From an uncultured bacterium (GTDB taxonomy: Bacteria; Pseudomonadota; Gammaproteobacteria; Burkholderiales; Burkholderiaceae_E): DNA of 32,272 nucleotides. Position numbers and translations under genes: made by a program. The stretch spans positions 1-32,272 of the forward strand of contig CAIPNM010000342.1 of the NCBI GenBank assembly GCA_903866395.1, in the 5' to 3' direction. The notes beneath the pieces are model-generated. The model searched no databases, was not told the origin of the DNA, and worked only from the letters and a program-made list of their open reading frames with translations. Within the stretch, counting starts at the first letter, position 1. Each line of letters starts with the position of its first letter. Of this stretch, positions 1 through 32,272 are shown one piece after another.

Positions 1-25
1 CGACCGAAGGGTCGCGACTGCGGGC

Positions 26-47
26 GGGCGGTGGCGTTACACCGCCC
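26..47 (-). terminator. Hairpin downstream of the thiolase gene
   Basis: A perfect 8-bp inverted repeat (GGGCGGTG / CACCGCCC) with a 6-nt loop lies 18 bases past the thiolase stop codon. A second small hairpin (CGACC-GAAG-GGTCG) sits at 1-14. Neither is followed by a clear T-run in the minus direction, so this is a possible transcript end or 3' stabiliser, not a textbook terminator. Confidence 0.35.
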
Positions 48-64
48 AGTGGCCGCGCCGATCT

Positions 65-1270
65 TTAGAGGCGCTCGACGATGGTGGCAATGCCCATGCC
101 ACCGCCTACGCAAAGCGTGATCAACCCGCGCCGCAACGACCTGCGTTCGAGCTCGTCGATGAGCGTGCCAAGCAGCATGGCACCGGTGGCGCCCAGCGGA
201 TGGCCCATGGCAATTGAACCGCCGTTCACATTGATTTTCTCCGCAGGAACGCCAAGCTCCTGCATATATCGAAGCGGGACGGCGGCAAAGGCTTCATTGA
301 CCTCGAAGAGATCGATGTCATCGATCGTGAGGCCCGCTTTCGCGAGCGCCTTACGGGTGGCGGGCATGGGGCCGGTGAGCATGATGGTTGGGTCGGTGCC
401 GGTCAGCGCCGTGGCCACGATTCGGGCGCGCGGCGTGATGCCGAGCGTGCGGGCGGCGGATTCGTTACCGATCAGAACCAGTGCTGCGCCATCGACGATG
501 CCTGAGGAGTTGCCTGCGTGATGAACATGGCGGATACGTTCGACCTGCGGATACTTGCGTAGCGCCACCGCGTCAAAGCCCATCTGGCCCATCTTTTCAA
601 ACGAGGGCTTCAGCTGCCCCATGGCCTCAAGCGAGGCGTCCGGGCGGATGGTTTCGTCGTGATCAAGAATGGTGAGGCCGATTTCATCGTGCACCGGTAC
701 GATCGACCGCTTGAAGCGGCCGTCGGCGCGTGCGGCAGCCGCCAACCGATGCGAACGAACGCCCCATTCGTCGACCTGCTCGCGCGACCAGTCGTCGAGC
801 GTGGCGATCAGGTCGGCGCCAATGCCCTGCGGAATGAACGCGGTGTCGAGATTGGTTTCGGGGTCCATCATCCAGGCGCCCCCGTCGCTGCCCATGGGCA
901 CCCGCGACATGGATTCGACGCCACCCGCCACGATCAGGTCTTCCCAGCCCGAGCGCACTTTCTGTGCAGCGAGATTGACCGCCTCGAGACCCGAGGCACA
1001 GAACCGATTGATTTGTACGCCTGAGACCCGGAGATCCCACCCTGCGGCCAACGCAGCGGTTTTGGGGATGACCGAACCCTGGTCGCCGACCGGCGACACA
1101 CAGCCCAGAACCACGTCTTCGACCAGCGACGTGTCGAGGTCGTGGCGCGACTGGAGCTCATGCATGAGGGTGGTGAGGAGCTTGACCGGCTTCACCTCGT
1201 GCAGCGAACCGCTGGACTTACCGCGGCCGCGCGGTGTGCGGATGGCATCGAATACGAAGGCCTCGGACAT
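65..1270 (-). CDS. Acetyl-CoA C-acyltransferase (thiolase)
   Basis: This is a 401-residue thiolase, which cleaves 3-ketoacyl-CoA with CoA or condenses two acyl-CoAs in the cytoplasm. The nucleophilic cysteine is C91 in the [11 protein letters not shown] motif, NEAFA is at 325-329, the catalytic histidine is H357 in [10 protein letters not shown], and the second cysteine is C387 in CVGGGMG. The length is normal for the FadA/PhaA family. The ATG at 1270 is chosen because GGAG precedes it by 7 nt and [15 protein letters not shown] is a typical thiolase N-terminus; an upstream in-frame start at 1312 would add an unlikely leader. It diverges from the acyl-CoA dehydrogenase at 1364, so the two probably share a regulatory region and serve one beta-oxidation pathway. 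Chain-length specificity cannot be read from sequence. Confidence 0.93.
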
Positions 1271-1363
1271 GACGGTGCTCCAGGTTGACGTGAACGGAGA
1301 GATCGGGCGCAATGCTGACCCGCTTCATCTCCAATCTTACAACCGTTGCCACCGGAGCCGCCG
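1271..1363. promoter_or_regulatory. Divergent intergenic region, thiolase / acyl-CoA dehydrogenase
   Basis: This 93-bp gap must hold the start signals for both divergent genes. Ribosome-binding GGAG elements are visible before each start (one 7 nt before the thiolase ATG, one at 1354-1357 before the dehydrogenase ATG). A -35-like TTGACG is at 1285-1290 for the plus direction, but the hexamer 17 nt later (CGCAAT) is a poor -10. No clear operator was found. Confidence 0.4.
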
Positions 1364-2518
1364 ATGCTGGAAAGAAAGCTGTTCAACGAAGACCACGCGA
1401 TGTTTCGCGACTCGGTTCGCCGCTTTCTTGAAAAAGAGGCGCTGCCCTTTCACGCTGCCTGGGAAGAGCAGGGTTATGTTGATCGCGAGATCTGGCGCAA
1501 GGCCGGTGAGAACGGCTTTCTTTGCAGTTCTATCCCTGAGGAGTGGGGTGGGCCGGGCGCCGATCGGCTTTACTCGGTGATCGTGATGGAGGAGATCGCA
1601 CGGGTGAACGCCACCGGGCTTGGCTTTGTGCTCCACTCGGAGATCGTGGCGCCCTACCTGCTTCGCTACGGCACTGACGAACAGAAGCGGCGGTACCTGC
1701 CCAAAATGGCCTCGGGCGACATGATTGGTGCCATCGCCATGAGCGAGCCGGCCGCGGGCTCCGACCTGCAGGGCGTTCGCACCACAGCGCTTCGCGACGG
1801 CGATCACTACGTACTCAATGGTTCCAAGACCTTCATTACCAACGGCTGGCATGCCGATCTGGTGGTGGTGGTTGCCAAGACCGACCCCGCAGCGGGCGCC
1901 AAAGGCACCAGCCTCTTCCTGATCGAGCGGGGCATGCCGGGGTTTGACAAAGGTCAACGACTGAAGAAGGTGGGTCTCAAGGCGCAGGACACCTCCGAGC
2001 TCTTCTTCAACGATCTGCGGGTGCCGGCCTCGCAGCTGCTCGGCAAGGAGAACCAGGGGTTCATTTATCTGATGCAGGAACTCCCCTGGGAGCGCATGCA
2101 GATAGCGATCGGCGCAGTGGAAAGCGCACAGGCAGCGATCGACTGGACCGTCGACTATGTGAAGAACCGGAAGGTGTTCGGCACCACGGTGGCGAGCTTT
2201 CAGAACACGCGGTTCCGGCTCGCCGAGCTCCAGACCGAGGTACAGATCGCGCGCGTGTTTGTTGACCGCTGCCTCGAGGCACTCATCGAAGACAAGCTCG
2301 ATACCGCCACCGCTTCCATGGCGAAATACTGGTGCAGCGATCTGCAGGGCAAGGTTCTGGACGAATGCGTACAGCTCCATGGCGGGTATGGCTTCATGTG
2401 GGAGTACCCGGTTGCCCGCGCCTGGGCCGACGCCCGCGTCCAGCGTATTTACGGTGGCACCAACGAGATCATGAAGGAACTGATTACCCGTTCGATGGGG
2501 CTCGCGGCACCGAAGTGA
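1364..2518 (+). CDS. Acyl-CoA dehydrogenase
   Basis: This 384-residue FAD-dependent dehydrogenase introduces the alpha-beta double bond in an acyl-CoA and passes electrons to ETF. Visible features are the FAD/substrate-binding AMSEPAAGSDLQG segment (about 126-136), FITNGWHAD in the middle beta domain, and the C-terminal QLHGGYGFMWEYPVAR and RIYGGTNEIMKELI, where E368 is the expected catalytic base. The order and length match the short/medium/long-chain ACAD family. ATG at 1364 is preferred over the in-frame TTG at 1346 because GGAG at 1354-1357 is 6 nt upstream. It precedes the liv-type transporter by 134 nt and is divergent from a thiolase, so it probably oxidises the imported acid after CoA activation. 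The exact substrate is unknown. Confidence 0.94.
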   Translation: MLERKLFNEDHAMFRDSVRRFLEKEALPFHAAWEEQGYVDREIWRKAGENGFLCSSIPEEWGGPGADRLYSVIVMEEIARVNATGLGFVLHSEIVAPYLLRYGTDEQKRRYLPKMASGDMIGAIAMSEPAAGSDLQGVRTTALRDGDHYVLNGSKTFITNGWHADLVVVVAKTDPAAGAKGTSLFLIERGMPGFDKGQRLKKVGLKAQDTSELFFNDLRVPASQLLGKENQGFIYLMQELPWERMQIAIGAVESAQAAIDWTVDYVKNRKVFGTTVASFQNTRFRLAELQTEVQIARVFVDRCLEALIEDKLDTATASMAKYWCSDLQGKVLDECVQLHGGYGFMWEYPVARAWADARVQRIYGGTNEIMKELITRSMGLAAPK

Positions 2519-2530
2519 CCACGGGAATTT

Positions 2531-2559
2531 TTGACGCCCGGCAGCCCCGTCGATAGACT
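2531..2559 (+). promoter_or_regulatory. Candidate sigma-70 promoter for the liv operon
   Basis: TTGACG (2531-2536, 5/6 match to the -35 consensus) is separated by exactly 17 nt from TAGACT (2554-2559, 4/6 match to the -10). It lies in the gap before livH, so the transporter operon could be transcribed independently of the upstream dehydrogenase gene. This is a consensus match by eye only. Confidence 0.45.
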
Positions 2560-2563
2560 CGAC
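2549..2563. promoter_or_regulatory. Dyad overlapping the candidate -10 element (possible operator)
   Basis: GTCGA-TAGAC-TCGAC is a perfect 5-bp inverted repeat whose centre is the first five bases of the -10-like TAGACT. A regulator bound here would block the promoter. The regulator is unknown. Two more small inverted repeats follow: AGCCGC-GTAA-GCGGCT (2576-2591), with a GNRA tetraloop, and GCCGGC-AAT-GCCGGC (2615-2629). Confidence 0.35.
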
Positions 2564-2652
2564 ACCCATCATCAGAGCCGCGTAAGCGGCTTCGATGCCA
2601 ATCAACAGCGGGGCGCCGGCAATGCCGGCAGCCGAAGCGGGACGTGGGGGAC

Positions 2653-3528
2653 ATGGAGTTTCTGCAACTGGCGATCGGTGGTGTCGCAATGGGCTGCATT
2701 TACGCGCTCATTGCGCTTGGCTTTGTATTGATCTACAAGGCCACCGAAGTGGTGAATTTTGCGCAGGGCGATGTGATGATGCTGGGCGCCTTTGTCGCGT
2801 TCACTTTCGCAAGCCTCTGGCAGTTGCCGTTTGCACTGGCGGTTGCAATGACCCTCGCGGTGTTGGTGGCCGTTGGCGCATTGTTTGACCGGTTTTTGCT
2901 GCGGCCAATCATCGGTCAGCCCACGTTTTCCGCGGTGATGGTCACCATCGGTATTGGCTTTGTCGCCCGCGGGATCGCCACCATGGTCCCCGGCTGGGGG
3001 ACTGACACTCATGCGCTCAAGGCGCCCTGGTCTGACAGCACGATCCATTTGGGCTCGCTGGTCGTGTCATCCGATGACCTGGCGATCATTGCGCTCACTG
3101 CAGCGCTCTGCTTGGTGTTGTGGCTTTTTTTCAGCCGCACCCGCATCGGTATCGCCATGCAGGCGAGTTCGCAGAACCAGCTGGCGGCCTACTACATGGG
3201 AATTCCGGTGCGCCGCATCAACACGCTGATATGGGGCATTTCCGCAGGCATCGCAGCCTTCGCGGCGGTGCTGCTGGCGCCGGTCACCTTTGTGCATTCC
3301 AACATGGGGTTCGTGGGCCTGAAGGCGTTTCCGGCCGCCGTGGTGGGGGGCTTTGGCAGCATCCCCGGTGCGATCGTTGGCGGTCTGATCATTGGCCTGG
3401 TTGAGGCATTCGCAGGCTTCTATCTGCCCGAGGGCTTCAAAAGCGTGGCAGCCTACATCGTGGTGCTGATTGTGCTGGTGGTTCGTCCCTCGGGCATCTT
3501 TGCCGAGATGCGGCGTAAGAAGGTCTGA
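2653..3528 (+). CDS. livH: LivH-type ABC transporter permease
   Basis: This 291-residue, very hydrophobic protein belongs to the branched-chain amino acid permease family (LivH). The N-terminal MGCIYALIALGFVLIYKATEVVNFAQG segment is highly characteristic of the family; further membrane segments follow, as does the AFPAAVVGGFGSIPGAIVGG stretch that contacts the ATPase. It would form the inner-membrane channel together with LivM. ATG at 2653 is taken; a GTG 9 nt upstream (2644) is also possible because the purine-rich stretch before it is ambiguous. It heads a run livH-livM-livG-livF-acyl-CoA ligase-binding protein. The symbol gives the family; genes around it suggest the cargo is an organic acid rather than leucine, which is inference. 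Confidence 0.93.
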   Translation: MEFLQLAIGGVAMGCIYALIALGFVLIYKATEVVNFAQGDVMMLGAFVAFTFASLWQLPFALAVAMTLAVLVAVGALFDRFLLRPIIGQPTFSAVMVTIGIGFVARGIATMVPGWGTDTHALKAPWSDSTIHLGSLVVSSDDLAIIALTAALCLVLWLFFSRTRIGIAMQASSQNQLAAYYMGIPVRRINTLIWGISAGIAAFAAVLLAPVTFVHSNMGFVGLKAFPAAVVGGFGSIPGAIVGGLIIGLVEAFAGFYLPEGFKSVAAYIVVLIVLVVRPSGIFAEMRRKKV

Positions 3529-3540
3529 GGCGGCCATCGC

Positions 3541-4617
3541 ATGCGATTCATTTTCAAGACCCGATACGAGCAGGATCTACAGCTGTTTCGTGACCGCACC
3601 GAAGCGGGCTGGTACGGGCTCCTTCTGGTGGTTCTGCTGGCTGCGCCGTTTGTCGTGCCCGAATACTGGCGCGCGCAGCTGGTATTCATTTACATCTGGG
3701 GCATTGTCGGCTTTGGCCTCATGCTGCTCAGCGGCTTTACCGGCCAGCTCTCCATGGGACATGCGGCTTTCCTTGCGATCGGCGCTTATACCGAGACGCT
3801 GCTGCAGGCGGCCGGTTGGCCGTTTCTGCTGAGTGCGCCCGCTTCGATTCTGCTCGCGGCCGCGGCAGGCATCCTGATCGGGGTGCCTGCGCTGCGACTC
3901 ACGGGCATTTATCTGGCCATTGCCACGCTCGCCTTCGGTTTCATCGTCGAGGAGGTGCTCGCGCGCTGGGAGTCGCTCACTGCGGGCAACTCCGGGCTGA
4001 TGGTGCCACCGCTTAATCTGGCGGGTAGCCCACTCACCGGCTCAAACAGCTTTTACTACCTGTGTCTCGTATGCATCGTGCTGGTGGCGCTTGTCGTACG
4101 CAACCTGCTGCGTGCCCCCACCGGTCGCGCCTTCATCGCCATCCGCGACTCAGAAATCTCGGCGCAGAGCATGGGTGTGAATCTGGCCCGCTACAAGACG
4201 CTGAGTTTTGCGCTATCGGCCGGCATTACCGGCCTGGCTGGCGCGCTTTATGCCCACCAGATCCGCTTCATCAGTCCCGAGCAGTTCACGTTGTTTCTGT
4301 CGATTGAGTTCCTCATGATGATCGTGATTGGTGGCATGGGGTCGCTGCACGGCGCGGTGTTCGGGGCAATTTTCATGATCGTGCTGCCTGAGTTGATCGC
4401 CATTACCAAAGACTATCTCCCGCAGGTGGTAGCCGAACAGACCGGGCTCAAGTCCACCGTGTTTGGCGTGCTCATGATTCTTTTCGTCCTGTTTGAACCG
4501 TTGGGTCTCTATGGACGATGGGTGAAGATCCGCACCTGGTTCTCCCTCTTTCCGATGTACAAGGCCGGCATGTTCAAGCGCCAGAAGACGTACCAGAAGT
4601 CGGAGCGGGTGCACTGA
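3541..4617 (+). CDS. livM: LivM-type ABC transporter permease
   Basis: This 358-residue protein is the second membrane subunit of a HAAT-family transporter. It has a polar N-terminus of about 20 residues, then membrane segments, and contains the family hallmarks GLMLLSGFTGQLSMGHAAF (about 60-78), GIYLAIATLAFGFIVEE and GGMGSLHGAVFGA. The C-terminus is long and basic (FKRQKTYQKSERVH), as is common in Burkholderiales homologues next to an acyl-CoA ligase. It starts 12 nt after livH and its TGA overlaps the livG ATG by one base, which points to translational coupling. It pairs with LivH; the substrate is not readable from the permease. Confidence 0.93.
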   Translation: MRFIFKTRYEQDLQLFRDRTEAGWYGLLLVVLLAAPFVVPEYWRAQLVFIYIWGIVGFGLMLLSGFTGQLSMGHAAFLAIGAYTETLLQAAGWPFLLSAPASILLAAAAGILIGVPALRLTGIYLAIATLAFGFIVEEVLARWESLTAGNSGLMVPPLNLAGSPLTGSNSFYYLCLVCIVLVALVVRNLLRAPTGRAFIAIRDSEISAQSMGVNLARYKTLSFALSAGITGLAGALYAHQIRFISPEQFTLFLSIEFLMMIVIGGMGSLHGAVFGAIFMIVLPELIAITKDYLPQVVAEQTGLKSTVFGVLMILFVLFEPLGLYGRWVKIRTWFSLFPMYKAGMFKRQKTYQKSERVH

Positions 4618-14096: not shown

Positions 14097-14172
14097 TGGC
14101 GCCCCCGACACGAATCGAACGTGTGACCCTCCCCTTAGGAGGGGGATGCTCTATCCACTGAGCTACGGGGGC
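14097..14172 (-). tRNA. tRNA-Arg (anticodon CCT)
   Basis: The minus strand folds as a full cloverleaf of 76 bases. The acceptor stem is GCCCCCG/CGGGGGC, the D arm follows TAGCTCAGTGGATAGAGC, the anticodon stem TCCCC/GGGGA carries loop CTCCTAA (CCT, reads AGG), and the T arm is ACACG-TTCGATT-CGTGT. The 3' CCA is encoded. The 5' end overlaps the folA stop codon by 10 nt on the same strand, and no integrase or att duplicate is seen next to it. AGG is expected to be a rare codon in this GC-rich genome. Confidence 0.97.
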
Positions 14173-14729
14173 GTGCCGTGGATTGTAGCCGAGCCGCCTG
14201 TTGCCTCGTGTGCCCGCTCGAGGTTGCGGTAATGCGAGATGGCGTAGCTGATGCCGCTTGCCGAGAGATGCGTCTGTCGCGACCGCAGCAACCACTTCGC
14301 GGGATCGAGGGATGGGAAGAATGCGTCGCCCTCAGGCTCGAGATCGATCTCGGTGATGATCGCCTGATCGGCCTGGTCGAGTACGGCGCGATAGATCTCC
14401 CCGCCCCCGGCAATAAAGACATGGGGGACATCGCCTGCGAGCCTGACTGCCTCACCAAGTGAGGCCGCGCGCTCGCAACCTGGGCTCGTCCAGGATGGAT
14501 CGCGGGTGAGTACGATGGTGCGACGGCCCGGGAGCGGCCGGCCGATGGACTCGAAGGTTTTCCTACCCATCACCAGCACATGACCCAGCGTGGTTGCTTT
14601 GAAATGCCGGAGATCTTCAGGCAGCTGCCAGGGCAGGGTGTTGTTCAGACCGATCACGCCATTGGCGGCACGGGCCACGATGAGGGTGATCAGGGGGCGC
14701 GGTGCCACCGCGCGAACGCCCCGCGTCAT
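14163..14729 (-). CDS. folA: Dihydrofolate reductase
   Basis: This 188-residue enzyme reduces dihydrofolate to tetrahydrofolate with NADPH, regenerating the folate used by ThyA. Motifs are [19 protein letters not shown] (22-40, with D39 as the substrate-binding acid), [19 protein letters not shown] (51-69), [11 protein letters not shown] (104-114) and the C-terminal strand [11 protein letters not shown]. The N-terminus has about ten extra residues and the C-terminus a dispensable-looking tail of about 18 residues ([13 protein letters not shown] end). The ATG overlaps the thyA TGA by 4 nt (ATGA). The stop codon TAG is bases 8-10 of the tRNA-Arg gene, so RNase P cleavage at the tRNA 5' end would remove the stop from the message. 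Confidence 0.96.
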
Positions 14730-21322: not shown

Positions 21323-21826
21323 ATGGAACATCTACTTCAGCGGTGGCAGCAGCTTTCCTCCAGGGAGCGTCGGCTGATGGTGGGCGCCGTGGTGGCGGCA
21401 GCCTGTGCACTGGTCTATCTGCTCCTGATTGAACCCGCTTGGAATGGTCGCGAAGCGGTACAGGCGCGGCTGCCTGCGCTGCGCTCGCAAGTCGCCGAGG
21501 CCGACCTGATGGTCGCCGAGGCGCGCCGACTCAGCTCGGCGGCTGCAGCATCGCCCCGTCCGTCGCTCCAAGCGGTACGGGTTCGGCTCGAGCAATCCCT
21601 TGATTCAGCCGGACTACGACCGGGCTTGCAGCAGATTCAGGCAACCGAATCGCTCATCGACCTGCGCTTACGCGGTGTGCCCTTCGCGACCTGGGTCGGC
21701 TGGTTGGATTCAGCGCTTCGCGAGACCCGTTTGCGGGTGGCCGATCTGTCGGTGACGCGAGATGCCGATCCCGGACTGGTAAGCGTGCGCATGGTTCTGG
21801 AGCTGCCAGGGGGTGATCGGCGATGA
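21323..21826 (+). CDS. gspM: Type II secretion protein GspM
   Basis: This 167-residue bitopic protein has the GspM opening WQQLSSRERRLMVGAVVAAA, a membrane helix at about 19-36, a helical linker (EAVQARLPALRSQVAEADLMVAEARRL) and a C-terminal ferredoxin-like domain ending in VSVRMVLELPG. It stabilises GspL in the inner-membrane platform. It begins 12 nt after gspL and overlaps gspN by 4 nt (ATGA). Confidence 0.9.
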   Translation: MEHLLQRWQQLSSRERRLMVGAVVAAACALVYLLLIEPAWNGREAVQARLPALRSQVAEADLMVAEARRLSSAAAASPRPSLQAVRVRLEQSLDSAGLRPGLQQIQATESLIDLRLRGVPFATWVGWLDSALRETRLRVADLSVTRDADPGLVSVRMVLELPGGDRR

Positions 21827-22608
21827 CGGCCCGAACGATCATCGCTGCAGCCGTCACCGCGTTGGTGTCGTTACTGGTCGCGCTGGGTGTGATCTTCACC
21901 ACCGCGCCCGCAACCTGGCTTGATGCGCTTGCCGCCAGCCTGACGGGTGGCAAGCTGAGACTCGCCGAAGCCGCCGGTACCGTTTGGCAGGGGAGCGGCC
22001 GTCTGGTCTGGGTTGACACGGGTGAGTCGGCCCAATCGCGGCGCTCGCTCGCGGGCGTCGCCTTGCCCGGCCGGATTCACTGGCAGCTTGCGCCCGCGCC
22101 ACTGTTCCTGGGCCTGATCGAGGCGACCCTGAAAGTTGACGGCATGACCCAGCCCGTGGCGCTGCAGGGAAACTGGCGCGAACTGCGCCTGGGTAACGGA
22201 CGGCTGGAGCTTCCCCGAATCGAACTGGGTGCCCTGGGGTCGCCCTGGAATACCGTGCGCCCTGCCGGTGCCGTCATGCTGTCATGGTCCAACATCATGC
22301 TGGGGCCGCAGCGGTTTGATGGCGGCGTCACGATCGAACTGCGAAACGTTGCGTCCGCTTTGAGCGCAGTTCGGCCGCTGGGCAATTACCGGATCGAGAT
22401 TCAGGGGCAGGGTACTCAGGCCACGATCGGGATGCAGACACTTGATGGGGCCCTGACGCTTACTGGTCAGGGGACGGCCAGTGCGCGCGGGTTTTCGTTC
22501 GTGGCGCGCGCCCAGCCAGCCCAGGCGGACGATACCCGGTTGCGGGGTCTGCTCGGGTTGGTCGGGACACGCGATGGTGAACAGACGATTATCAGGGTAG
22601 GGTCATGA
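21823..22608 (+). CDS. gspN: Type II secretion protein GspN
   Basis: This 261-residue protein has an N-terminal signal-anchor (about 5-28) followed by a beta-rich periplasmic domain, with LRLAEAAGTVWQGSGRLVW, GRIHWQLAPAPLFLGL and LGALGSPWNTVRPAG. This matches GspN, a non-universal T2SS part whose role is poorly defined. The GspN domain is present in full. Both ends overlap neighbours by 4 nt (gspM and gspD), so translation is tightly coupled. Confidence 0.9.
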   Translation: MTARTIIAAAVTALVSLLVALGVIFTTAPATWLDALAASLTGGKLRLAEAAGTVWQGSGRLVWVDTGESAQSRRSLAGVALPGRIHWQLAPAPLFLGLIEATLKVDGMTQPVALQGNWRELRLGNGRLELPRIELGALGSPWNTVRPAGAVMLSWSNIMLGPQRFDGGVTIELRNVASALSAVRPLGNYRIEIQGQGTQATIGMQTLDGALTLTGQGTASARGFSFVARAQPAQADDTRLRGLLGLVGTRDGEQTIIRVGS

Positions 22609-24998
22609 ATAACAGTCTCATGCGCAGGATCATTCGTACCCACCCCAGGCTCGCAGAGAGCATCGCCGCGCGAGGGCTCGCCGTGGTCAGTGCGCTGGCC
22701 CCGCTTGCAACCAGCGTCGCTGCACGGGGGCTCGCCGTGGCCGCCACGCTGGTCCCGCTTGCGGCCAGCGCCCAGCCCGCCGCGCCGGTGCAGCCCGCCG
22801 CCGCGGCAGCCCCCAGCGGGGCGCTTGCGGCACCACCAGCGCTGACGCCGCGCGGCGATGAGGTGGTGCTCAACTTTCGCGATGCGGAGATCGAATCCAT
22901 CGCCAATGCATTCGCGCACCTGATCGGCCGAAACCTGGTGGTCGATCCGCGGGTGCGCGGCAAACTTACGCTGGAAACCGCCCGGCCGGTGGGTCGCCAG
23001 CAAGCGTTCGAACTGTTCCGGATCGCGCTGCGTGGTCTGGGGTTCGCCTACGTGGACGTGGGCGGTATTGGGCGGATCGTGCCGGAGGCCGATGGCAAGG
23101 TGCTGGCCTCTACGGTTCGGGGGCCGGAGGCAGCCGCCGCACCGGCCGGCGAACAGATCATCACGCAGGTGTTCCGGCTGAAGCACGAAACCGCGGCCAA
23201 CCTGGTGCCGGTGCTGCGTCCGCTCATCACGCCCAATAATTCGGTCGTCGCCTATCCGGGCAATAACTCGCTGGTGGTCACCGACTACGCGTCCAACATG
23301 GCCCGGCTCGCCGCGATCATCGAATCGATCGATACAGCAGTGGCCAATGAGGTTGAAGTCATCCCCATGGTTCATGCGCTGGCCATTGACGTGGCTGTAG
23401 CCGTCAATCGCATGCTCGATGAGAGCGCGCGCGCCGGCGCGCAGCAGCAGCAGTCTGATCCGACCCAGCGCGTGACCGTGTTTGCCGATGCTCGTCTCAA
23501 TTCGGTGCTGGTGCGCACCTCCAGCCCTGAGCGCATGAAGCTTGCGCGAGGCCTGATTGCGCGGCTTGACGTGGCGAGCAGCGAGCCAGGCAACATTCAT
23601 GTCGTCTATCTGAGAAACGCAGAGGCGGTGAAGCTCGCGCAAACACTGCGCGGCGTACTGGCGGGCGACGGCGGGCAGGGCGCGGGTCAAAGCTCCACGA
23701 CCTTCGGACAAAGCCTGTCCGGGGCGGGAGGGCAGCAGTCATCGCTTGGCGGAACCAGCCTTGCGAGCGGGCCGCAGGCCGGCCAGGGTGCGCTGGGCAG
23801 TAACGCGCCGCTGGGTGGCTCCATGGGTCAGTCAACAAGCGGCGGGCAGCAGCAGGGGGCCACCAGCGTCCGGGTGGGCGGGGCCATCATCACCGCCGAT
23901 CCGGCGAGTAATGCACTGATCATTACCGCACCTGATGCGATCTACCGCAGCCTGCGCGCGGTCATCGACAAACTTGATGCGCGTCGCGCCCAGGTGTTCA
24001 TCGAATCCCTGATCGTTGAAGTGCAGGCCGATAAGGCGGCTGAGCTCGGAATTCAGTGGCAGTTCCTTGGTGCGCCAGAGGGATCGACCCGAGGGTTCGG
24101 TGGCACCAACTTCGGTTCTGGCGGAACCAATATTGCGGCACTTGCAGCCGACCCCAGGCAGATCGCCACTGCGAACGGTCTCAACATCGGCGTGGTCCGC
24201 GGCACCACTCAGCTGGGCACCACCCAGGTGCTGAATCTGGGGCTCCTCGCCCGCGCGCTGGAGTCGGACGCATCGGCCAATGTCCTGGCAACGCCCAATC
24301 TGCTCACGCTCGACAACGAAGAAGCGCGCATCATGATCGGGCAGAACGTGCCGTTCATTACCGGTCAGTTCACCAGTCTCGCCAGTGCAGGCGCGGCCAC
24401 CGCCAATCCGTTCCAGACGATCGAACGGCGCGACGTAGGCACCACGCTTCGGGTGCGGCCCCAGATCTCGGAATCAGGTACGGTGCGCCTGCAGATCTTT
24501 CAGGAGGTCTCGAGCGTTCTTGATCGGACCAACGCATCGGGCATCATCACCAATCGGCGGGCCATTGAATCCAACGTGCTGGTTGATGATGGTGAAATCA
24601 TCGTCCTCGGCGGGCTGATCGAGGAAACGCTTTCGGGCTCCGAGTCAAAGGTTCCGGGCTTGGGTGATCTGCCGCTTGTAGGCGGGTTGTTCCGCTACGA
24701 GAGCCGCAAGCGGGTGAAGAACAACCTGCTGGTGTTTCTCCGCCCGGTCGTGCTGCGCGACATGGAGGCGGCGAATGCGGTGTCGGCCAATCGTTACGAC
24801 TACATCCGTGCGATCCGAAATGACGTCCGGTTGCCCTCCCGCAACGGCTTGCCCGACATGAACGGCACGCCGCTACCGGCTCGCCCCGAGGCGCCAGAGG
24901 GTCAGCCTCGGCTGCCTGCTGCAGTCAGGCAGCCCGGGTTCAGCTTCTTTCCCCAAGCACCCGCGGCACCGGCTCTTCCAAGAGTCGATACACCCTGA
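22605..24998 (+). CDS. gspD: Type II secretion secretin GspD
   Basis: This 797-residue protein forms the outer-membrane secretin ring. The N0 domain (about 86-160) starts VVLNFRDAEIESIANAFAHL, the N1-N3 domains run to about 455, and the secretin domain (465-720) carries VFIESLIVEVQADKA, ANVLATPNLLTLDNEEARI, GTTLRVRPQIS and VPGLGDLPLVGGLF. Odd features are an 18-residue tandem repeat in the leader (residues 19-54), a Gln/Gly/Ser-rich insertion of about 65 residues in N3 (355-420), and an Ala/Pro-rich C-terminal tail. The leader looks like an unusually long signal peptide with cleavage near ASAQP (about 55). ATG 22605 overlaps gspN by 4 nt. It is the first of D-E-F, placed after gspN. Confidence 0.96.
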   Translation: MNNSLMRRIIRTHPRLAESIAARGLAVVSALAPLATSVAARGLAVAATLVPLAASAQPAAPVQPAAAAAPSGALAAPPALTPRGDEVVLNFRDAEIESIANAFAHLIGRNLVVDPRVRGKLTLETARPVGRQQAFELFRIALRGLGFAYVDVGGIGRIVPEADGKVLASTVRGPEAAAAPAGEQIITQVFRLKHETAANLVPVLRPLITPNNSVVAYPGNNSLVVTDYASNMARLAAIIESIDTAVANEVEVIPMVHALAIDVAVAVNRMLDESARAGAQQQQSDPTQRVTVFADARLNSVLVRTSSPERMKLARGLIARLDVASSEPGNIHVVYLRNAEAVKLAQTLRGVLAGDGGQGAGQSSTTFGQSLSGAGGQQSSLGGTSLASGPQAGQGALGSNAPLGGSMGQSTSGGQQQGATSVRVGGAIITADPASNALIITAPDAIYRSLRAVIDKLDARRAQVFIESLIVEVQADKAAELGIQWQFLGAPEGSTRGFGGTNFGSGGTNIAALAADPRQIATANGLNIGVVRGTTQLGTTQVLNLGLLARALESDASANVLATPNLLTLDNEEARIMIGQNVPFITGQFTSLASAGAATANPFQTIERRDVGTTLRVRPQISESGTVRLQIFQEVSSVLDRTNASGIITNRRAIESNVLVDDGEIIVLGGLIEETLSGSESKVPGLGDLPLVGGLFRYESRKRVKNNLLVFLRPVVLRDMEAANAVSANRYDYIRAIRNDVRLPSRNGLPDMNGTPLPARPEAPEGQPRLPAAVRQPGFSFFPQAPAAPALPRVDTP
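22659..22766 (+). repeat. 54-bp tandem duplication in the gspD leader
   Basis: Two adjacent 54-nt units (22659-22712 and 22713-22766) match at 42 of 54 bases and encode SIAARGLAVVSALAPLAT and SVAARGLAVAATLVPLAA, 12 of 18 residues identical. The frame is kept. The duplication gives two hydrophobic cores in the signal peptide region; the divergence suggests it is not very recent. Confidence 0.85.
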
Positions 24999-27710: not shown

Positions 27711-28844
27711 TCAAATTCGCATCGCTTGCGCGTAGCCGGTGAGTTCCAGGTAGCCGCGGCCAATCGTACGTCCGGCTTCGGTGACCGTGACCGCGCCCTC
27801 CCAATAGGTGATGCCGGTGCTGCCGCGGGTCTCGAGCTCCTGATCATCAAACATGGGCTGTAGCTCGATCACTCGGGTGCCGACGCGCAACCGCTGCGCT
27901 ACGGGCCACGATGCGCCGCTACGCGGTGAACGCCAATGGCGAAGCGGCTCGAAGGTCACCATTGCGGTATCGCCCTGAGCACGGATCTCTCGCTGTTCCG
28001 CGTCAACCCACCGGGCGTACTGCCAGAGCGCTCGGCCGTCGGCGCGGCGGACCTGAAAGGCCGTGAGGGCGCTTCCGTCAGCGAGGTGAAGACCGACCCA
28101 GTCCCAGCCTTGTGCCTGGGCATCAAGCAGTTCGCTCGACCACTCATGATCGAACCAAGCGTGACCCTGTACCGTCCGCGGCGTGAGGCGCGGTCGATCG
28201 GGATCGGCCCACGCGATTTCGCCCCGGGCGGCAAGCCAGGGGCGGCTGTAGTAGTAGCTCGCCTGAACGGGTTGCGGGCCTTTCTGGGAAAAGCCCGCCT
28301 CGCCCTGAAGCAGCGGGGGGCGTTGCGCCTGAAAATCAATGCTGATTGACAGCGCAGAATCGCTGATACGAGCCTGGTAGCGATCGGCTGCATCGCGGAT
28401 CAGCTGCCAGTTGCCGATGCGAAGCGCGGTATCGGTTTCGTCAGCCTGCGCGATGCCCAGGCCGATTCGTGCAGCGCGCTCGGCCTTGATCAGCCGGCCG
28501 CGTCCCGGGACCGCGATCGCGGCATGCGCAAACATCAGCTGCTGTGCTGCAAAGCGGCTGGTGTGATCACGCTGCCAACCGGTGGCAACCCTGAAAAACG
28601 TGATTTGGAGGCCAATCGGCGCGCCCGCTTCGCCGGCTGATGCATCCATCCAGCCGGTCAGGTACCACCATTCAATCCTGAAATCGGGGTGTGCGCCGTG
28701 ATCGCGTGGAAACGACAGGCGCTTGCCGGGCGTGACCGATGCAAAGCGGGGCGCTGCACTGTCCGAGCGAGCGGACGCTGTCAAGGGTGCGGCACCCGCT
28801 GCGAGTGCAAGCGCCCGAAGCAGTTGACGTCGGGTCGCGCTCAC
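27711..28844 (-). CDS. AttH/CrtC-like lipocalin protein, Tat-exported
   Basis: This 377-residue protein has a twin-arginine leader (SATRRQLLRALALAAGAAPLTASA), so it is exported folded. The mature part has the signature FRIEWWYLTGWMD and later HAWFDHEWSSELL, which mark the AttH/carotenoid 1,2-hydratase (CrtC) lipocalin-like superfamily. No carotenoid genes are present, so carotenoid hydration is unlikely; attachment- or lipid-related AttH is a better comparison. GTG 28844 overlaps the permease stop by 4 nt. It is the last gene of a run fabI-ATPase-permease-lipocalin, which suggests it accepts or modifies what the permease extracts. Its activity is unknown. Confidence 0.88.
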   Translation of the reverse strand: MSATRRQLLRALALAAGAAPLTASARSDSAAPRFASVTPGKRLSFPRDHGAHPDFRIEWWYLTGWMDASAGEAGAPIGLQITFFRVATGWQRDHTSRFAAQQLMFAHAAIAVPGRGRLIKAERAARIGLGIAQADETDTALRIGNWQLIRDAADRYQARISDSALSISIDFQAQRPPLLQGEAGFSQKGPQPVQASYYYSRPWLAARGEIAWADPDRPRLTPRTVQGHAWFDHEWSSELLDAQAQGWDWVGLHLADGSALTAFQVRRADGRALWQYARWVDAEQREIRAQGDTAMVTFEPLRHWRSPRSGASWPVAQRLRVGTRVIELQPMFDDQELETRGSTGITYWEGAVTVTEAGRTIGRGYLELTGYAQAMRI

Positions 28845-31480
28845 CAGTCCTGCCTCACCGCCAGCACGGGCGCTGCGCCCGTGGCCTCCCGCGCAGACAG
28901 GCGTGCCGCCACGGCGGCCAACATGATCATGGCGAATGCGCTGGTGGCAAGCATGCTGGCGGGCCAGTGCATGGACATCGTCCAGTGAAAAGACTGCGGA
29001 TTGACACGATGCACCAGGACCCACGCAACGACCGCGCCCAGGACAAGCCCCCACAGACACGCTACCACGGTGCCCAGGGCCGCCTCGAGCGCGAACTGCT
29101 GTCCGATCTGCTTGCGGGTGAGCCCGAGGTGGCGAAGCATGCCGAACTCTCGCTGCCGCGCGAGGGCTTCGCCAGCGACCGAGGTGGCGACGCCAAACAA
29201 CGCCACTGCGATGGCAATGGCCTCGAGCACATGCGTGATCGCAAAGCTTCGGTCAAAGATCTTGAGCGAGAGCGATTTCAGCTGGCCGGTATCCCGAAAT
29301 TCCATGCTGTCAGTGAGCGGGGACAGGGCTTGCGCCTGCGCGATGAAAGCCTCGGTCTGCGAGCGATCGGCGAGCCACCACGCGACTTCATTGGCCGCAC
29401 CATCGCCCGTCAGACGACGGTAATCATCGATATCGATCGCAATCGCGCCGTGCTGTCGGGCATAGTCCCGCCAGATACCGGCAACCAGGGCTCGCACGGG
29501 AGTCGGGGTGTTGCCGATCGGCAGCGACAACATATCGCCAGGCTGTACCCGGAAAATATCGGCGAAGGGTTCACTCACCCAGACGCCCAGCTGATTCTCT
29601 GGCACCGCGACCGTTTTTCCTGTCAGGGGCAGACGTGCCGCGACACCGGCCGAGTTCAGCGGACGCGCCACCAGCGCGACAGCCGGGCGGCGCTCGTCGA
29701 GCAGGATTGAACCGACCCGCGAAAACTCGACCTGGCTCGCGCCCGACAGGGCCCGGATACGGTTCTGTAGCGATGGGTCGAAGCCCTCGCCTGCCGCGCT
29801 GGCGGGCAGTCGGGCATACAGGTCAGCGGGTAACACCTGATCGAGCCAATCAGAGACCGAGACCCGAAAGCTGGTGACCATGATGGCCATCGCACTGGCG
29901 AGCGCGAAGCTTGCGACCACACCGCCCAACGCTGAGCCAGCGCTGCCGGGTGCGCCCGCCATGCGCGACAGTGCGAGCCAGACCGTGGGCGGCGGCGCGC
30001 GCCGTTCCAGTGCCTGGATCACCGCCCGCGAGCATGGCCCGATCAGGGGGCCAGTTAGCATGACGCCAGCGAGGAGCAGTATCGCGATGCTGGCGTAAGC
30101 CGCAAGCGGCAGGTCGGCGATAGGCGGCGCCGCCAGCAGCAATAGTGCAATCGCTGCGAGCCCGGCCGCCCAACGCGCGCGCCCACTCGGATCGAGCACG
30201 CTTTCCGTCGAGCGAGCGCGTAGCGCACGCGCGGGAATGATGCGTTGTGCCGCCCGCATCGGTGAAAACGCGCCCATCAGCGCAATGGCAAGGCCGCCGG
30301 CCAGGCCTGCCGCGACCGATAGTGGGTCGATGGCAAGCGCGATCACGCGACGATCGAAGTAGCCGCCTCCGAGGTCGCCCCCGGTCACGGCGAGGAGTAG
30401 CGATGCGAGTGCCATTCCCCCCAGCACCCCGGTGACCGAGCCGAGTGCGCCGATCGCCAGTGCATCGATCAGTATCCGTTTTGCGGCAAAGCGGCGTGGC
30501 GCGCCCAACACGCCGAGCAGCGCAATCTCATGCTGCTGGCGGGCTACCCGCAGCGCGAGCGTGGCCTGAACGATGAAGGCGCCGGTAAAGAGCGCCACCA
30601 GCGCGAGCACATTGAGATTGACCCGATAGGCGCGCGACAGGTTTGACATCCGTTGCCCAGCCGCCTGGGGGACGCTCCAGAGCACCTGTATGGGAAGCGT
30701 GGGCTCGACCGCGGCGCGCACGCTGCCCGCGTCGGCGTTCTCCGTAAACCGCAGGTCGATCCTCGACAATTTCCCCAGTCGACCAAAATATTGCTGGGCA
30801 TTGGCAATATCGAGCACCGCCAGCAGCTGACCTTCATCGGCGCCCTCTACGCTGCCCGCCACGCGCAATGTCTGCTGGTGCGCCCCGGTCTGGATAACGA
30901 TCTGCTCGCCTGGCGCGATGCCGAGCGCACGCGCCGCCGCGCGCGACAGAAACACGGCATCGTCGGCAAAGAGCGCCGCCGGGTCGTTGCGATCGGCTTC
31001 AGCCAGTGAGGGTAAAAGCGTGGGCGTGACCTGGGCCGCGCGAAGCGGATCGATCCCCAGTACACGAAGTGCGATCGGCTGCGAGGCTTGCGGCGAGCCC
31101 GACTGCGTCAGCCCAGGGGATTCGGTCGCGCGGAGTGGTGCGCGACGGGCGGCCGGACCGACGACTGAGGCGAGGGCTTTGAACTCGATGACGGGGCTTG
31201 CTGCGGCGATGCCTGATGATTCGGTCAAGGTCGCATAGACCTGCTCGTCGAAGTCAGCGCTTCGGCCCACCAGTTGTGCCTGCGCGTCGCCGTTGACCAT
31301 GGCGATCGCGGCAGAAAATTCCGCTAATGCTGATCGGTTGACCCAGTGCACGCCCAGCGCGAGCGCTACACCGATCGCAATCGACAGCGCACCGGCCAGC
31401 ATGGCAGCAGGCCCTTCTCGCCAGTGGGCCGCGATCAGCCATCGAAGAAGCGCGCGGTGGGGGCTGGCCGACTGCGTCAC
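28841..31480 (-). CDS. FtsX-type ABC transporter permease
   Basis: This 879-residue inner-membrane protein has a first helix at about 25-48, a large periplasmic domain, then several helices (about 290-410) of the first FtsX domain. A second periplasmic domain and helices follow, and it ends with the second FtsX domain (EALARQREFGMLRHLGLTRKQIG). The double FtsX domain and length match the large MacB/YbbP-like permeases and AttG. Such systems move lipids or lipoproteins, or use mechanical force across the periplasm. GTG 31480 overlaps the ATPase stop by 4 nt. It pairs with the downstream lipocalin and the upstream ATPase. Confidence 0.9.
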   Translation of the reverse strand: MTQSASPHRALLRWLIAAHWREGPAAMLAGALSIAIGVALALGVHWVNRSALAEFSAAIAMVNGDAQAQLVGRSADFDEQVYATLTESSGIAAASPVIEFKALASVVGPAARRAPLRATESPGLTQSGSPQASQPIALRVLGIDPLRAAQVTPTLLPSLAEADRNDPAALFADDAVFLSRAAARALGIAPGEQIVIQTGAHQQTLRVAGSVEGADEGQLLAVLDIANAQQYFGRLGKLSRIDLRFTENADAGSVRAAVEPTLPIQVLWSVPQAAGQRMSNLSRAYRVNLNVLALVALFTGAFIVQATLALRVARQQHEIALLGVLGAPRRFAAKRILIDALAIGALGSVTGVLGGMALASLLLAVTGGDLGGGYFDRRVIALAIDPLSVAAGLAGGLAIALMGAFSPMRAAQRIIPARALRARSTESVLDPSGRARWAAGLAAIALLLLAAPPIADLPLAAYASIAILLLAGVMLTGPLIGPCSRAVIQALERRAPPPTVWLALSRMAGAPGSAGSALGGVVASFALASAMAIMVTSFRVSVSDWLDQVLPADLYARLPASAAGEGFDPSLQNRIRALSGASQVEFSRVGSILLDERRPAVALVARPLNSAGVAARLPLTGKTVAVPENQLGVWVSEPFADIFRVQPGDMLSLPIGNTPTPVRALVAGIWRDYARQHGAIAIDIDDYRRLTGDGAANEVAWWLADRSQTEAFIAQAQALSPLTDSMEFRDTGQLKSLSLKIFDRSFAITHVLEAIAIAVALFGVATSVAGEALARQREFGMLRHLGLTRKQIGQQFALEAALGTVVACLWGLVLGAVVAWVLVHRVNPQSFHWTMSMHWPASMLATSAFAMIMLAAVAARLSAREATGAAPVLAVRQDW

Positions 31481-32157
31481 GCCGGTTCAAGCCGACCCTG
31501 CCGCAGGACCAGCTGACGATCAGCGATGGCTGCCGCCTCGTGTGAGTGGGTAACGAGTAACAGCGCTGCGCCCGATTCGGCAGCCTGCTCGGCGATCAGG
31601 GCGAGCGCAGTGCGGGCGCTTGAGGGATCCAGGTTGCCGGTGGGTTCGTCGGCGAGCAGCACACGGGGCGCAGCCACCAGCGCCCGCGCGAGCGCGACCC
31701 GTTGTTGCTCGCCACCCGAGAGTTCGCGAATCGGGGCTTGGAGGCGGGTGCCCAGGCCCAGTCGGCCGAGCACGGTGGCGGCGCGATCGAGTGCTTCGGC
31801 AGGGGGAATGCCGTTCAGGAGCAGCGGCACCGCGACATTTCGCTGCACGGTGAGGTGACCAAGGAGATGAAACGCCTGGAAGGCGAATCCGATCAGCTGA
31901 CGGCGAAGCGCGGCGGCGTGATCATCATCGAGACCGATGAGCGAGCGGCCGGCGATCTCCACACGCCCAGAGTCGGCGGGCTCGAGACCGGCAATGATGT
32001 TGAGCAGGGTGGACTTGCCGCTGCCCGACTCACCAAGCAATGCAATCCGCTCTCCCGGCTCGGCTCGTAGCGTCAGATCCTGGAGGATGATCCGCTCGCC
32101 GAAGCGCTTGTGAAGTGCCTCGAGCAGGACGGCGGGCGGATCCTCCCGCTCAGCCAT
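31477..32157 (-). CDS. ABC transporter ATP-binding protein (LolD/MacB type)
   Basis: This 226-residue ATPase of the LolD/MacB branch has Walker A GESGSGKST (42-50), the Q-loop GFAFQAFHLLGHLTVQRNV, signature LSGGEQQRVALARAL (146-160) and Walker B VLLADEPTGNLD. The DEPTGNLD form is typical of this family. It is the motor of the FtsX permease encoded after it. ATG 32157 overlaps the fabI stop by 8 nt; earlier starts would run through fabI in another frame. Confidence 0.93.
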   Translation of the reverse strand: MAEREDPPAVLLEALHKRFGERIILQDLTLRAEPGERIALLGESGSGKSTLLNIIAGLEPADSGRVEIAGRSLIGLDDDHAAALRRQLIGFAFQAFHLLGHLTVQRNVAVPLLLNGIPPAEALDRAATVLGRLGLGTRLQAPIRELSGGEQQRVALARALVAAPRVLLADEPTGNLDPSSARTALALIAEQAAESGAALLLVTHSHEAAAIADRQLVLRQGRLEPA

Positions 32158-32272
32158 TCGGTGATTCTGCGATCCCGCCCACGGTCTGGCTGAATCCGCC
32201 GTCGACATAAGTGATTTCGGCGGTGACACCGCCCGCAAGCTCTGAGAGGAGGAAGGCCGCGACGTTGCCAAC
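32150..32272 (-). CDS. fabI: Enoyl-ACP reductase FabI, C-terminal fragment
   Basis: The window edge cuts this gene, leaving the last 40 codons and stop. The reading VGNVAAFLLSELAGG followed by VTAEITYVDGGFSQTVGG is the FabI C-terminus (VGN-AAFL-SDL...GEI-YVDGGF), an NADH-dependent enoyl-ACP reductase of fatty acid synthesis. Its TGA overlaps the ATPase gene start by 8 nt, so the export genes are probably co-transcribed with it. The truncation is an artefact of the window, not a pseudogene. Confidence 0.88.
   Translation of the reverse strand, partial: VGNVAAFLLSELAGGVTAEITYVDGGFSQTVGGIAESPNG

Follow-up and report, generated by a model that had tools for sequence, protein, structure and literature searches.

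GspD signal peptides in relatives from the genus and family of the organism studied here (G002, G003, G007, and G010) consist of a basic n-region, a single hydrophobic core, an AxA↓Q-type site (the arrow marks the expected cut), a linker, and the N0 domain; within the genus, the start of gspD also overlaps the stop of gspN. Longer signals have been described in two other settings. In the portions of the two accounts on which we draw, bacterial autotransporters have long signals with a two-domain organization (PMC2805444), and NtraC-type signal peptides, described for vertebrate precursor proteins, have at least 40 residues and two parts (PMC2447879). The gspD gene that we analyzed lies in a window of 32,272 nucleotides (the whole stretch of DNA under study). 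Its leader has all the elements of the one-core signal peptides, including the overlap with gspN, but it contains two cores and 56 residues up to the AxA↓Q site, versus 51, 50, 45, and 37 residues in G002, G003, G007, and G010, respectively. Like the autotransporter signals, it is long and belongs to an envelope protein that is expected to be exported by Sec; unlike those covered in the cited portion, it is extended by a tandemly copied h-region. It shares length and bipartite layout with the NtraC type as presented there; a second function would be hypothetical for it. The titles and abstract openings surveyed mentioned no such duplication for GspD leaders, which is no proof of its absence from print.

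We looked into the genetic context of gspD, which is part of the plus-strand gene order gspG-H-I-J-K-L-M-N-D-E-F. Its product is an ordinary type II secretin: it scored 603.7 bits against TIGR02517 (cut-off, 351.35) over model positions 1 to 600 of 600, and Pfam recognized the Secretin domain, three stretches of Secretin_N, and the GspD N0 domain at residues 89 to 158. Pfam matches above the cut-off were obtained upstream for gspG, -H, -I, -K, -L, -M, and -N and downstream for gspE and -F; the gspJ candidate scored below the cut-offs (Pfam, 24 versus 28 bits; NCBIfam, 48.2 versus 64.85) and occupies the expected position. On the opposite strand, a reverse open reading frame (22467 to 23711) had no Pfam match at an E value of 0.001. 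Elsewhere on the minus strand, the window contains a dihydrofolate reductase gene upstream of the gsp genes (14163 to 14729; Pfam DHFR_1, 181.4 bits) and, past gspF (27711 to 32271), overlapping open reading frames for a CrtC/lipocalin-type protein, an FtsX-type permease, and an ABC ATPase truncated at the edge of the window, a set reminiscent of an AttH-like hydrolase and its exporter.

Table 1. Features of the gspD leader region, with positions in the window.
Feature	Position	Strand	Remarks
gspN	21823..22608	+	Directly 5' of gspD; Pfam T2SSN, 97.8 bits (cut-off, 29.6)
G-rich stretch AGGGTAGGG	22594-22602	+	Just 5' of gspD start
gspN/gspD overlap (ATGA)	22605..22608	+	Start ATG 22605-22607, gspN stop TGA 22606-22608
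gspD, type II secretion secretin	22605..24998	+	797 aa; TIGR02517, Pfam
Leader	22605..22772	+	Residues 1-56; cut expected at A-S-A↓Q, as predicted from the sequence
Repeat unit 1, SIAARGLAVVSALAPLAT	22659..22712	+	Residues 19-36; first hydrophobic core
Repeat unit 2, SVAARGLAVAATLVPLAA	22713..22766	+	Residues 37-54; second hydrophobic core; adjoins expected cleavage site
Ala/Pro-rich linker, leader to N0 domain	22773..22862	+	Residues 57-86

The preliminary description of this DNA had proposed a tandem, in-frame duplication of 18 residues at 22659 to 22766, with 42 of 54 bases identical and with two hydrophobic cores. We confirmed its coordinates, period (54 bases, or 18 codons), frame, and count, and the cores were borne out by 11-residue Kyte-Doolittle averages, which peak at 2.24 (from residue 25) and 2.25 (from residue 43). 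The units share 12 of 18 residues at the protein level, and the best register of the 54-base repeat starts at 22663 (43/54). Tandem Repeats Finder reported the repeat at 22659 to 22770 (period 54, 2.1 copies, 79% matches), and its score of 140 was the top of the 21 rows for the window. An ungapped repeat finder also returned a period of 54 with the register shifted by ten bases (22649 to 22756, 74%), and a scan of the whole window for tandem periods of 30 to 120 placed the gspD repeat first in identity over one full period (0.80; runner-up, 0.67). The unit was rejected as a dispersed repeat: 151 bases around it gave 41 matches in its own genome at E values up to 10, of which only the locus itself fell below 0.01, and the next-best one (E value of 0.0145) spans 19 bases. 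The predicted RNA fold of 22575 to 22800 was no better than that of shuffled sequences (z, −0.54; equalled or bettered by 51 of 200 shuffles).

We then examined the relatives. The genus is represented by five genomes, including the window's own, and all were searched. One of them (G001), whose GspD is 91% identical to that of the window, carries both units at the same position (MKKSLVSRISRTQPPPAMGVAARGLVVVSALAPLAASVAAWGLAVAAVLAPLAASAQPA). Between the two genomes, unit 1 matches unit 1 at 45 of 54 bases and unit 2 matches unit 2 at 46, while unit 1 matches unit 2 at 42 bases within the window, at 38 within G001, and at 40 and 41 in the crosswise comparisons. The copies are alike beyond chance, and orthologous copies are closer than copies within a genome, as in a tandem in-frame duplication by descent. 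At five sites the copies group according to position, and at none according to genome, which points to one duplication before the split of the window and G001 as the simplest account; no site supports separate duplications or conversion in the two. A comparison of leaders in close relatives, proposed in the preliminary description, also showed one core each in the complete leaders of G002 and G003, and these two outgroup leaders within the genus suggest a gain in the window/G001 pair rather than a loss in G002 and G003. In a different genus, the single core of G007 begins AARGLAGVV and resembles the repeat unit. The fifth genome, G004, was kept outside the copy-number comparison: its contig C191 (locus L117, G004:C191:1-200) ends 75 bases into gspD, within unit 1, and the next gspD piece, on C219, begins at residue 445. 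A separate entry, L047 (positions 1 to 4060 of CAMBZS010000219.1), is titled Bordetella parapertussis, yet its match position is that of C219 of G004, from the window's genus, and the title looks mislabelled.

To place the repeat among other GspD leaders, we used 94 loci, from which 11 were dropped (no N0 region scoring at least 80) and 12 identical leaders were merged, yielding 71 distinct leaders; one of the 11, L116, was restored by hand for the hydrophobicity and leader-length analyses. A simple mechanical rule was used to choose start codons, and some of the choices are certainly incorrect (e.g., L016 and L018). Sixty-seven of the 71 leaders were long enough to be tested for tandem repeats against 500 codon shuffles each, and a repeat of the hydrophobic core was found only in the window and G001. 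Three leaders were matched by no shuffle (L001, L002, and L079), and the significant repeat of L079, of 36 bases, lies in an Asn/Pro/Ser-rich low-complexity linker after the signal core. Shuffle fractions ranged from 0.002 to 0.008 for L097, L070, L021, L056, and L057 and from 0.026 to 0.048 for six more, uncorrected for the 67 tests. Two separate hydrophobic peaks preceded the site in 4 of 65 leaders (L001, L002, L028, and L058), and neither L028 nor L058 belongs to the 14 leaders whose shuffle fraction was below 0.05. The gspD of L021 (G032) has an in-frame TAA between leader and N0 domain, in a stretch rich in Thr, Pro, and Ser; this could reflect a sequencing error, a disrupted gene, or a start farther downstream.

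The leader-length set consisted of 64 leaders plus L116, leaders truncated by a contig end or with fewer than 20 residues being omitted, and an [AVST]xA↓Q pattern was present in 34 of these 65, including the window's. The length to AxA↓Q, taken at the first pattern match and therefore possibly a few residues off (32 instead of 37 for L006), was obtained for 16 of the 27 leaders of the family, a set in which the membership of L043 and L050 was assumed: 26, 27, 28, 29, 32, 32, 37, 41, 42, 45, 50, 50, 51, 56, 56, and 98 residues. The two 56-residue leaders, those of the window and G001, are the longest except for L028 (98 residues), which has a doubtful GTG start within a long open frame. One-core leaders fall as little as five residues short of these two. 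The repeat had been thought to extend the leader to more than 50 residues. The leader does have 56, but one-core congeners reach 51 and 50, so the duplication is unnecessary for a leader of at least 50 residues. Since GspD leader length varies widely in relatives, a long leader alone is no reason for choosing a later start.

Constraint on the leader is weaker than on the remainder of GspD. Between the window (G000) and G001, dN/dS was 0.65 for residues 1 to 56 and 0.08 for residues 87 to 797. By part, it was 0.32 for unit 1 (5 synonymous and 4 nonsynonymous changes), 0.47 for unit 2 (about eight changes), 1.57 for residues 1 to 18 (with only 2 synonymous changes), and 0.16 for residues 55 to 86. 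Core hydrophobicity was kept, with peaks of 2.45 and 2.47 in G001. Although these counts are very small, the unit dN/dS values and the equal hydrophobicity speak for a need of the units to stay hydrophobic and translated and are compatible with some function of unit 1, which may not be free of constraint.

By pattern, the leader is a Sec signal peptide, with R7, R8, R11, and R15, the two cores, and ASA↓QP at residue 56. We considered export by Tat through R7-R8 and discarded it, as this pair is absent from G001 (MKKSLVSRISRT); the G004 leader has RR at the same position. Beyond the expected cleavage site, the linker contains a short imperfect repeat (22773 to 22812; period 16, 2.3 copies). The A-S-A↓QP site follows unit 2 only, and the same site closes the one-core leader of G002. 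Unit 2 is thus most likely the working h-region, and unit 1 would be an extra hydrophobic stretch before it.

Several other readings of the repeat can be weighed against these data. A chance likeness between two cores rich in alanine and leucine, or an artefact of assembly, has next to no probability: the leader is of low complexity and the assembly, with its 518 contigs, is fragmented, but the best of 2,000 codon shuffles of 22605 to 22900 reached 34/54 at period 54, the copies differ at 12 bases, and the presence of both units at the same place in a different genome, G001, argues against an artefact and already contradicts this reading. Translation could also begin inside the repeat, at one of the in-frame GTG codons (22683 or 22737), leaving unit 1 partly or wholly untranslated. 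A G-rich stretch ends six bases 5' of each of these codons and G001 retains GTG at both, but the GAGGG 5' of 22683 is not retained there, a leader starting at 22737 would be without a basic n-region, and one starting at 22683 would have its sole basic residue between the cores. Moreover, all five genomes of the genus (the window and G001 to G004) retain the ATGA overlap between gspN and gspD, which leads us to reject an internal start and makes a GTG start extremely unlikely. The only in-frame ATGs of the leader, at 22605 and 22620, precede both units, so that an ATG with a ribosome site after unit 1, which the preliminary description had named as evidence against its proposal, does not occur. 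Alternatively, unit 1 would act as an independent signal, either cleaved after VAA↓RG (residue 40) or remaining as an uncut membrane anchor, and some GspD would keep the second core as an N-terminal anchor. The VAA↓RG sequence conforms to the −3,−1 rule for signal peptide cleavage. However, VAA is followed by R in the window and by W in G001, and the site differs from the AxA↓Q after unit 2, a type of site that one-core relatives also have. A secretin anchored in this way would presumably end up in the wrong place. We regard this possibility as very improbable.

We consider it probable that an 18-codon micro-duplication in a signal peptide under loose constraint was retained as a length variant, with the second core doing the export. 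Replication slippage or unequal recombination is the most likely origin of a single 54-base in-frame tandem duplication in the gspD leader, which would have arisen in a common ancestor of the window's species and one sister species and would have persisted, presumably as a neutral change, since GspD leaders are loosely constrained in both length and sequence. The entire 56-residue leader would be translated and used by Sec with the second core as its normal h-region, and signal peptidase I would cut at A-S-A↓Q and leave mature GspD unchanged. Of the interpretations offered in the preliminary description, neutral length variation is therefore the better half. An effect of the duplication on export is possible, the sole hint being the mild conservation of both units. 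It is unlikely, in our judgment, that the second core is functional in the sense that two cores alter the handling of the precursor (SRP versus SecA/SecB, translocation speed, or membrane holding time) and were both kept for that reason. In two species both cores are still hydrophobic with conservative changes, the dN/dS of the units is lower than that of residues 1 to 18, and the two-domain organization described, in the portion cited, for long bacterial autotransporter signals (PMC2805444) would provide a parallel. Yet the core repeat occurs in just 2 of the 67 GspD leaders tested, G002 and G003, though closely related, have a single core, and an extra stretch that is merely passive would likewise have to be hydrophobic if export is not to be blocked. 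Still less likely is a regulatory feature in which two moderate h-regions in series would slow or re-route GspD export and allow orderly assembly of the pore. Altered targeting of the secretin, also suggested earlier, found no support: as reported in the part of the work on the Dickeya secretin OutD that we cite, outer-membrane targeting depends on C-terminal residues and the pilotin (PMC3276575), and by analogy a cut-off leader would not be expected to affect it.

The duplication is real and also occurs in one sister species, and it otherwise looks like ordinary, tolerated length variation. Its significance beyond annotation is small. It provides a clean case of an in-frame micro-duplication of a signal-peptide h-region, with two species that have it and two congeners without it, and if the two-core form does change export, these species would offer a natural test of the effect of core number on Sec.
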